In this document: positions 17,898-19,680 of the stretch, piece after piece
How positions within the stretch are numbered: position 1 is the first letter of the stretch
How the letters are laid out: each line of letters starts with the position of its first letter
Source of the DNA: a bacterium
Lineage (GTDB): Bacteria; Pseudomonadota; Alphaproteobacteria; Rs-D84; CACZYB01
Direction of reading: 5' to 3'
DNA length: 38,957 nt
NCBI GenBank assembly: GCA_014803575.1
Contig: JAAVBO010000008.1
Coordinates: forward strand, 98,985-137,941
Program-made: the position numbers and the translations under genes
Notes under the pieces: generated by a model
Told to the model about the DNA's origin: nothing
Seen by the model: only the letters and a program-made list of their open reading frames with translations
Databases searched by the model: none

Positions 17898-18509
17898 TTA
17901 TCTAGTTTGACAATATCCATTATAACACCTTGTTCCGGAAGGGCAAGTACATCCTGTATACTCTCCGTCACATTTGTTTTGACAAGTTTTACCAACCCAA
18001 CTGCTACTACTGGAACTGCTGTTATTATCTGATACGCAAGAATAGATTTTTCTATTGCTACCGTCACCAGCAGTAGAGCCTGTCATATGATATCCTGGTA
18101 AACAACCAAAAAAACAACTTTCTGAAGTTGTAGAAATAAAGGTCTTAGTACTACAACCATTATTATAATAATATTTATAAACAGAACATCCACCTTCATA
18201 AAATGCATTGGCAGGAAGTTTAGAATCTTCACAGCAAAAATTAAAAGCTTTATCATTATCTTCTACGGTAAGAGTTGATTTATTTCCCTTAGTATATCCC
18301 GATTTACAAGTCCATTTGCAATCATTTTCATTAGGAGTAGCATTTTCCGGAATACTGTCAGGACAACATTTATCACCTCTTAGAGTATACCCCTTTTCAC
18401 AAGTGATAGGCATACACTGGTAGAAGGTTTGAGCGTTAGTATTAGCAGGTATTAATGTAGAGATAAGACCTGTGGCAGTTAGGTATAAAATTTTGTTATT
18501 AAGTTTCAT
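17898..18509 (-). CDS. Secreted Cys-rich protein
   Basis: Signal peptide MKLNNKILYLTATGLISTLIPANTNAQ; many CxxGY-type motifs; SD 'aaaggaaaaaaac'. Confidence 0.8.
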   Translation of the reverse strand: MKLNNKILYLTATGLISTLIPANTNAQTFYQCMPITCEKGYTLRGDKCCPDSIPENATPNENDCKWTCKSGYTKGNKSTLTVEDNDKAFNFCCEDSKLPANAFYEGGCSVYKYYYNNGCSTKTFISTTSESCFFGCLPGYHMTGSTAGDGSNRKIYSCVSDNNSSSSSSSWVGKTCQNKCDGEYTGCTCPSGTRCYNGYCQTR

Positions 18510-18572
18510 GTTTTTTTCCTTTCGTTTTGTTGTTAATAAAAATCTTCTCGGGAGGGAGTTTGGTTTCTATGT

Positions 18573-18628
18573 CGCCATCCCCCTACACCCCCCTATGGGG
18601 GATGGCGCGTAATTAACTTCGTAATTAC
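18573..18628. repeat. Double-hairpin unit A
   Basis: CGCCATCCCCC...GGGGGATGGCG (11-bp stem) followed by GTAATTA-acttcg-TAATTAC. Confidence 0.85.
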
Positions 18629-18660
18629 GAACTTAGTGCTTCATTTATGTTTATTTTCAT
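18625..18660 (-). other. Short ORF of unit A (MKININEALSS) with SD
   Basis: 'caaaggagtgagaaaacaaaATG', stop within hairpin region. Confidence 0.35.
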
Positions 18661-18712
18661 TTTGTTTTCTCACTCCTTTGTTAATTAATAAATTCTTGTA
18701 GAAGGTTCCCAG

Positions 18713-18793
18713 TCAGCAAACGGTCACCCCCAACCCCCCGAAGGGGTGACCGTAGTCACTTCGTTCCTTTTGTGCTGATTTATTTTTTCCCAT
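18713..18793 (-). other. Short ORF of unit B (MGKNKSAQKERSDYGHPFGGLGVTVC)
   Basis: 'aaagaggggaaaactagaATG'. Confidence 0.4.
18721..18752. repeat. Hairpin unit B
   Basis: CGGTCACCCC...GGGGTGACCG (10-bp stem), 148 bp from unit A. Confidence 0.85.
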
Positions 18794-18809
18794 TCTAGTT
18801 TTCCCCTCT

Positions 18810-18944
18810 TTAATTAATAGTTTTCTTTTTCGAGTAGAGTAATTCATACACTCCCCTCTTTGTCACAAGGCGACCCCCGTATCCCCCCTTGCGGGGTCGC
18901 CTGTAATTGTCTTCACAATTACTTACTTGTTGATTTTCTTTCAT
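18810..18944 (-). other. Short ORF of unit C (MKENQQVSNCEDNYRRPRKGGYGGRLVTKRGVYELLYSKKKTIN)
   Basis: 'ggaggagaataatATG'; start overlaps an upstream short ORF stop (ATGA). Confidence 0.45.
18868..18922. repeat. Double-hairpin unit C
   Basis: AGGCGACCCC...GGGGTCGCCT and GTAATTGT-cttc-ACAATTAC; 147 bp from unit B. Confidence 0.85.
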
Positions 18945-18971: not shown

Positions 18972-19010
18972 GGGAGGAAGTGAAGACCATGAACAAAAAA
19001 ACTTCCTCCC
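18972..19010. repeat. Inverted repeat downstream of ORF 19020-19439
   Basis: GGGAGGAAGT...ACTTCCTCCC, 10 bp perfect arms, 19-nt loop. Confidence 0.8.
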
Positions 19011-19019
19011 ATTTTCTTT

Positions 19020-19439
19020 CTACTTCCAACTCTTACTTGTTGCTACATACTCCTTTAACCCATACCCGCTTGGACAAGCTCCGCTCTTTACCTGAGTCAA
19101 ACTGTACCCGCTCGGACACTTGCCATCGGTAATCAAAGTCGCTACATAACCGGAAGGGCAAGTTATAGCTTCACAGCTCTTGCGATCATTACTCGCAAAA
19201 GACCCATCAATACAGTTCTTGCAACTCCTTGAAGATATATCGTAGTATTTTGACAGAGTCCCGCATTCGCACTTGCCATTAGTGTACGTCGCCTTCTCCG
19301 AACAGTAATTAATCGACGCAGGCACGCAGTACTCCTGTAAGATTTCTGTTATGGTTTTTGTTTTTGAGTGAACAGCTATTTCTCCTCCATAAAATAGCAA
19401 ATTACTAATGAAAAGTATTTTTAATAAGTTTTTTTTCAT
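19020..19439 (-). CDS. Secreted Cys-rich protein with CPSGY repeats
   Basis: Signal peptide MKKNLLKILFISNLLFYGGEIAVHS; repeats CPSGYVATLITDGK/CPSGYSLTQVKSGA/CPSGYGLKEY; SD 'aaaggggaataat'. Confidence 0.75.
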   Translation of the reverse strand: MKKNLLKILFISNLLFYGGEIAVHSKTKTITEILQEYCVPASINYCSEKATYTNGKCECGTLSKYYDISSRSCKNCIDGSFASNDRKSCEAITCPSGYVATLITDGKCPSGYSLTQVKSGACPSGYGLKEYVATSKSWK

Positions 19440-19510: not shown

Positions 19511-19680
19511 GGGGGAGTTAGTTAATCATATGTAAGAATGACTTCCTTGGCCTTTGGGGAAAAATCCCTTGGACATACGCCAAAGACTCCCCCAAAAGAT
19601 AAAGGGGGAACACTTTTTCGGGACATAAACACAAAGAGAATATGCTCCGCTTACATAAAGGATTAACTACAATCCCGTAT
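19511..19680 (-). other. Structured intergenic element / candidate leader RNA of ORF 19020-19439
   Basis: TTGGGGGAGT (19511-19520)/ACTCCCCCAA (19588-19597); competing CCCCC 19591-19595/GGGGG 19606-19610; inverted arms tagttaatcatatgtaag (19521-19538)/cttacataaaggattaacta (19652-19671). Confidence 0.45.

Follow-up and report, generated by a model that had tools for sequence, protein, structure and literature searches.

GC-rich double-hairpin units as candidate dispersed DNA repeats in two species of an uncultured alphaproteobacterial genus

We suggest, with roughly even confidence, that three GC-rich hairpin units in the genome of an uncultured alphaproteobacterium are members of a class of palindromic DNA repeats, dispersed and lineage-specific, which spread and turn over at the DNA level, a mobility that we infer. 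The units lie in the 38,957-nt stretch of contig JAAVBO010000008.1 that we analysed (the window), where a spacer of 510 bp holds them between two genes on the minus strand, each encoding a cysteine-rich protein with a signal-like N-terminus: downstream, a secreted protein of 203 aa (17898..18509); upstream, a small secreted protein of 139 aa (19020..19439). The source genome (G000) spans 1.118 Mb in 26 contigs; its size and its housekeeping genes suggest a reduced, host-associated organism.

Exactly three perfect GC-rich hairpins (stem of at least 10 bp with at least 7 GC pairs, loop of 9-16 nt) occur in the window, and none in 25 simulated windows drawn from its dinucleotide frequencies. They lie at 18573-18607 (11 bp stem, 13 nt loop), 18720-18753 (11 bp stem, 12 nt loop) and 18868-18902 (10 bp stem, 15 nt loop), with a GC content of 71-74% against 31% for the window. 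A preliminary description of this DNA had given these positions and the 148 and 147 bp spacing correctly; constant spacing is not a rule, however, with hairpins lying ~121-139 bp apart in the related arrays L009 and L011. The same description saw a tandem array of one unit with a common ‘CCCCC-N3-CCCCCC’ core, but the core spacers are N4, N2 and N4, and the units, here A, B and C, represent three different families of one repeat class. The two AT-rich second hairpins that it reported are real (18609-18630 and 18903-18922); that of the middle unit is degenerate.

In unit A (18568..18634, minus strand) the short hairpin abuts the long one; the unit matches our broader model R2 at 29.9 bits, its predicted fold has a z-score of -4.5, and copies occur on contigs C4, C3, C8 and C16 of the same genome. 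Unit B (18709..18781, minus strand) joins inverted-repeat ends (ATCAGCA/TGCTGACT here; consensus AGTCAGCA/TGCTGACT) to its degenerate short hairpin and its long hairpin, matches R2 at 78.5 bits and belongs to the family with covariation evidence. Unit C (18859..18928, minus strand), in which the short hairpin again abuts the long one, matches R2 at 36.6 bits, folds with a z-score of -4.6 and has a second copy in L009. On the transcribed strand a Shine-Dalgarno sequence and then an ATG precede each unit (at 18660, 18793 and 18944 for A, B and C). No Rfam family matched the window at its gathering score, and at a relaxed threshold the units gave chance-level matches only; neither tRNA nor tmRNA was found in the window.

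By stem sequence the repeats fall into about 12 families, which we number 5 (GCGAGCCGCCC), 6 (ATGAGCCAGCC), 7 (GGCACACCCG), 9 (GTCCATCCCCC), 10 (GTCGCCCTCCC), 11 (GCGAGCCACCCG), 12 (GAGCACACCCC) and 13 (GTGCCCGCCC), with A, B and C for the window units. Once every long hairpin is turned to present a G-rich loop, most families follow the plan a1 - C-run - 3-5 nt - G-run - 3-4 nt - G-run - a1', with a stem of 10-14 bp and the C-run opposite two G-runs; families 5, 6 and 13 instead carry a self-complementary CCCGAA..TTCGGG repeat where the runs would be. We considered an intramolecular G-rich triplex in the long-hairpin loop as a conceivable reason for this pattern. The short hairpin adjoins the long one in most families (gap of 0-1 nt), on its 5' side in most B copies, in families 7, 9, A and C and in the L066 unit, and on its 3' side in families 10, 11 and 12. 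Its loop on the oriented strand is mostly GNA in family B (GAA, GCA, GGA) and mostly GNNA in families 7 and 9. Family B, whose inverted-repeat ends are 8 nt long, is predicted to fold as a three-way junction. Families A, B, C, 11 and 12 run forward relative to transcription and families 7, 9 and 10 backward; within a family, the units seem always to face the same way with respect to their own Shine-Dalgarno/ATG flank. The G/C homopolymers in loops vary in length from ~4 to 10 (families 9 and B; L040, L051, L053, L055, L059), and because copies differ in this way these loops may be hypermutable.

R1, a covariance model built on family B, matched 13 sites in G000 and 22 in the congener G004 (JAAVBN01, MAG Mgla_MAG_18-bin_5), 35 in all, and no site in any of 206 further genomes of the order, four congeners among them; a DNA search agrees. 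Such dispersal, together with the absence of matches from those 206 genomes, argues for a DNA repeat. Among 395 genomes of the class R2 matched only G000; G004 was not among the genomes matched, presumably because it was not drawn in that even sample. Both large searches used strict filters and may miss weak distant relatives, and copy counts, taken from searches and local stretches, are minimum numbers. A viral collection gave 11 pattern matches, just one of which reached the model (23 bits), without the long hairpin, and plasmids gave no match to a G004 array. The units appear specific to two species of one uncultured, small-genome genus, the only place where we found them.

A DNA search of G000 located more copies on contigs C4, C3, C8 and C16, several of them at contig ends, with the same spacer organisation and often different hairpins (stems such as GTGGGCGCCC, GCGAGCCGCCCG, GGCACACCCG and ATGAGCCAGCC). 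Some arrays separate paired genes for cysteine-rich secreted proteins; others lie behind terminators or between convergent genes (L012, L059, L063, L072, L074), as do three units at C8:12.5-12.9 kb, between two convergent genes; and lone copies stand beside unrelated genes (L058, L062, L066, L072). The arrays behind terminators or between convergent genes, and the occurrence of both orientations relative to transcription, likewise favour the DNA-repeat reading. No copy was seen inside a long gene, and the family B copies inspected, which are not the full set, were all intergenic.

The units are also exchanged. Window unit B and L011 agree in their flanks (39/45 and 75/88 positions identical) and differ in the hairpin block (29/53), which has therefore been replaced; whole hairpins are swapped within conserved flanks, and chimeric hairpins that combine the arms of two families are present in L047, in L073 and, at its end, in the L045 array. 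The chimeras form in the shared C/G core, and units stand in mosaic arrays. Hairpin swaps, chimeras, the lack of a conserved reading frame and a cysteine-rich gene pair without units in the congener G003, where sampled spacers hold a GGGAGGAAG..CTTCCTCCC palindrome and a short leader, all speak for turnover at the DNA level. Some array sites are common to G000 and G004 with different content, for example one behind a 409-aa gene (L012 vs L059) and one beside a 78-aa gene (L060 vs L047), which suggests old array sites, not fresh insertion. Because the identity of B-family copies is about equal within G000 (0.61) and between the species (0.62), the families are older than the species split; identity is somewhat higher within G004 (0.69), with some later homogenisation there.

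Signs of transposition were sought. No Y1 (RAYT) transposase (PF01797) was found in nine genomes, G000 and G004 included, in a search whose positive controls matched, and no reverse transcriptase that might act as a mobiliser was found in G000, in a sample that lacked G004. At 24 sites we compared 4-7 nt direct repeats close to the ends with those of shuffled partners and saw no excess beyond one or two sites. Neither the 409-aa nor the 78-aa gene site yielded a clean empty site at conserved synteny: in G001-G003 the 409-aa gene has no units behind it and a different next gene, so that the comparison is not clean, and the 78-aa gene has no orthologue in the sampled congeners. The missing Y1 transposase, the lack of a target-site duplication excess and the lack of a clean empty site count against our reading, as do the shared array sites and the fixed orientation within families.

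These results bear on a possible if somewhat unlikely alternative in which nothing transposes: passive palindromes would be amplified by duplication and gene conversion among paralogous cysteine-rich gene loci and further array sites, while template-switch correction would maintain perfect stems. Most arrays do lie in a multicopy gene family, near-identical stretches connect loci (the window and C4 share one of 248 bp at 98%), and the chimeras, the hairpin swaps, the array sites common to two species and the failure to find a transposase or target-site duplication all fit. Passive amplification accords less well with the lone copies beside unrelated genes, or with family B ends that are conserved in sequence and not in pairing alone.

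Across 35 model-aligned matches, 21 of the 25 pairs are changed on both sides (154 cells, against 53 in shuffles and ~22 in slid controls); the alignment is fitted to the model and so leans towards its structure, and its last seven rows are other families or weak matches. It supersedes an alignment of ten B units in which register errors weakened covariation. Compensatory variation, previously read from the three window sequences, cannot be seen in these alone, as they are of different families, and becomes demonstrable with the 35 matches. That it ‘argues for selection on structure’ was too strong a conclusion, since template-switching palindrome correction or whole-hairpin exchange would also preserve complementarity. 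The preliminary description had staked its finding on further copies and covariation in relatives, and on both it survived.

We compared wobble pairs between strands by counting G-U against A-C. For the long stem we obtain 5:4 across 39 distinct hairpins (a list whose detection allowed at most one mismatch) and 3:4 in family B (counted without that limit), compared to 53:2 by the same counting in R3, a structured RNA described below that serves as a bona fide RNA control (Fisher p = 0.003 and 0.0009); the wobble pairs counted are few. Because G-U and A-C are equally rare, the long stem would seem, on these small counts, to persist as a Watson-Crick palindrome with neither strand preferred, which suggests DNA; the covariation and the ratio of 5:4 are further grounds for the DNA-repeat reading. 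Against it we count the small wobble numbers, the model-fitted alignment and a G-U excess in the family B short hairpin (18:2, mostly at the outermost pair). Strand counting with a bona fide RNA control is a simple means of telling DNA-level and RNA-level covariation apart in palindromic repeats; it also cautions that covariation by itself is no proof of a functional RNA.

A functional RNA is in our judgement improbable here. The arrays would be leader or spacer RNAs that regulate or stabilise the cysteine-rich gene transcripts through double hairpins after the start codon, and a Shine-Dalgarno sequence and ATG ahead of transcribed-strand units at many loci, strong predicted folds (z -1.5 to -6) and covariation are consistent with this. 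However, free-standing arrays have no downstream gene, units occur in reverse orientation, the long stem has no G-U preference, and congeners with the same gene pairs lack the units. The ‘structured mRNA spacer array’ proposed earlier is disfavoured by arrays behind terminators that lead no gene, by the reversed families and by the lack of long-stem G-U bias. The units look like parasitic or recombining DNA palindromes rather than regulatory RNA.

As DNA repeats, the units would spread and turn over through hairpins extruded where the DNA is single-stranded, at the replication fork or in the course of recombination. Template switching between arms and exchange between copies would keep the long stem perfect, and illegitimate recombination or a putative mobilising enzyme would bring new copies to intergenic sites. 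Cysteine-rich gene operons would tolerate arrays because these lie in the transcribed spacer, where unit junctions keep a Shine-Dalgarno sequence and ATG. A more speculative and decidedly improbable proposal is a bacterial hairpin-cassette system, in which dedicated single-strand recombination would swap two-hairpin interiors between fixed inverted-repeat ends, keep stems perfect and diversify the spacers beside multicopy cysteine-rich surface proteins.

An integron-like cassette array, with the palindromes as attC-like recombination sites, would share the diverse stems of conserved structure, the arrayed units and the unit exchange; attC sites, however, end in RYYYAAC/GTTRRRY, from which the family B ends differ, and the units hold no conserved gene. 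We rate this reading as very improbable. Least credible is an array of small translated genes, which we reject because reading frames are not conserved: a Shine-Dalgarno sequence and ATG precede many units and frames reach 44 codons, but from copy to copy the hairpin falls in frame 0, 1 or 2 and the frame spans anything between 5 and 44 codons, a start is missing from many copies, and loop indels shift the frame between the two C units.

The neighbouring genes have features of their own. The small cysteine-rich protein family is multicopy and present in every sampled genome of the genus. Small and larger genes form multicopy pairs (as in the window and in L013 and L046), and several of the larger proteins carry Ephrin_rec_like repeats and a glycine-rich domain. 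The gene family gives 13-15 matches per genome in G000, G003 and G004, and many copies lie at contig ends, so the assemblies probably under-count them. The GGGAGGAAG..CTTCCTCCC palindrome lies at the 3' end of the small gene (18972..19010, minus strand in the window) and of its counterparts in G000, G003 and G004 (L017, L018, L023, L033), in G004 as GGGTGGAAG..CTTCCACCC; as it also occurs in the congeners G003 and G004, we place it outside the hairpin-unit class. Its CUUCCUCCC arm could also pair with the downstream Shine-Dalgarno sequence (GGAGGAG), so the palindrome could be a terminator or switch. Arrays lie near Cro/C1-type HTH genes in L060 and L074 and near a small unannotated protein family (the 78-aa gene in L060, a relative in L066), either by chance or as part of a mobile module.

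Upstream (5') of the small cysteine-rich gene lies R3 (19511-19593, minus strand), a structured RNA of four helices with the core GUAUGUCCA..AAAG. In eight copies 93% of cells are paired and 12 of 24 pairs are changed on both sides; in 32 matches these values rise to 97.3% and 20 of 24. The R3 model matches 150 of 208 genomes of the order and 17 of its 24 genera, with up to 21 copies per genome. Within the window R3 has no Rfam match at the gathering score. Two R3 copies, found in other genomes of the order, resemble sRNA-Xcc1 (RF02221) with scores of 36.7 and 32.9 bits against a cut-off of 53, and on this account R3 may be a remote relative of sRNA-Xcc1, which occurs on integron cassettes upstream of symE in Xanthomonas (PMC12444791). 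R3 often stands ahead of genes for cysteine-rich or other secreted proteins and sometimes ahead of HTH regulators; in this genus it precedes the small cysteine-rich genes and also Cro/C1-type regulator genes in L060 (an HTH_3 match) and L074 (judged by eye). It may interest readers more than the hairpin units and probably deserves separate study.

Among known systems, mitochondrial GC clusters and double-hairpin elements are the nearest to the units, both in structure and in how they behave, merger and shuffling included. Yeast GC42, Allomyces DHE, sponge hairpin-forming elements and Volvox palindromes likewise form single or double GC-rich hairpins within AT-rich intergenic DNA, have a patchy distribution among close relatives, and merge and shuffle (PMC4478555, PMC2800124, PMC2670323). 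The units share the two GC-rich hairpins per element, the AT-rich intergenic setting and the merger and shuffling, but lie on a bacterial chromosome, form ~12 families and mostly oppose a C-run to two G-runs. The AG or ACT direct repeats that flank yeast GC clusters (PMC4478555) have no counterpart at the units, and the 24 sites showed no excess of target-site duplications beyond one or two sites.

The closest bacterial analogues are the Rickettsia palindromic elements (RPEs), short palindromic repeats with long stem-loops dispersed in a small genome (PMC2229807). RPEs measure 105-146 bp and also occur in frame inside genes (PMC2229807); the units, likewise dispersed and stem-loop forming, have a family B core of ~70-78 bp and a whole length of ~120-150 bp, and in-frame copies inside protein genes were not seen among the family B copies inspected, a partial set. 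The earlier proposal of RPE-like elements thus holds as an analogy, given many dispersed copies, strong covariation and occurrence in two species of one genus; membership of the RPE family does not, since no copy was seen inside a long gene and the likeness is to descriptions of RPEs, not to their sequences. REP/REPIN/BIME elements are similarly clustered extragenic palindromes with predicted hairpins in single-stranded DNA or mRNA (PMC3116915). A GTAG or CGTC tag marks many REPs (PMC3733652), which are associated with RAYT transposases (PMC3116915); among the 68 hairpin contexts listed no common tag stands at the foot of the hairpin, stems are free to vary between fixed flanks where REP/REPIN sequence is conserved, and we rejected a RAYT/REP assignment because no Y1 transposase was found. 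We class the units as short palindromic repeats of a new variety, outside the mitochondrial, RPE and REP/REPIN families.

Double-hairpin GC elements have been described mainly from organelles, and the units would be their bacterial counterpart in a reduced, AT-rich genome. With its many stem families and clear shuffling, such a counterpart would be a system in which to study how perfect palindromes are kept up and spread without a known transposase.
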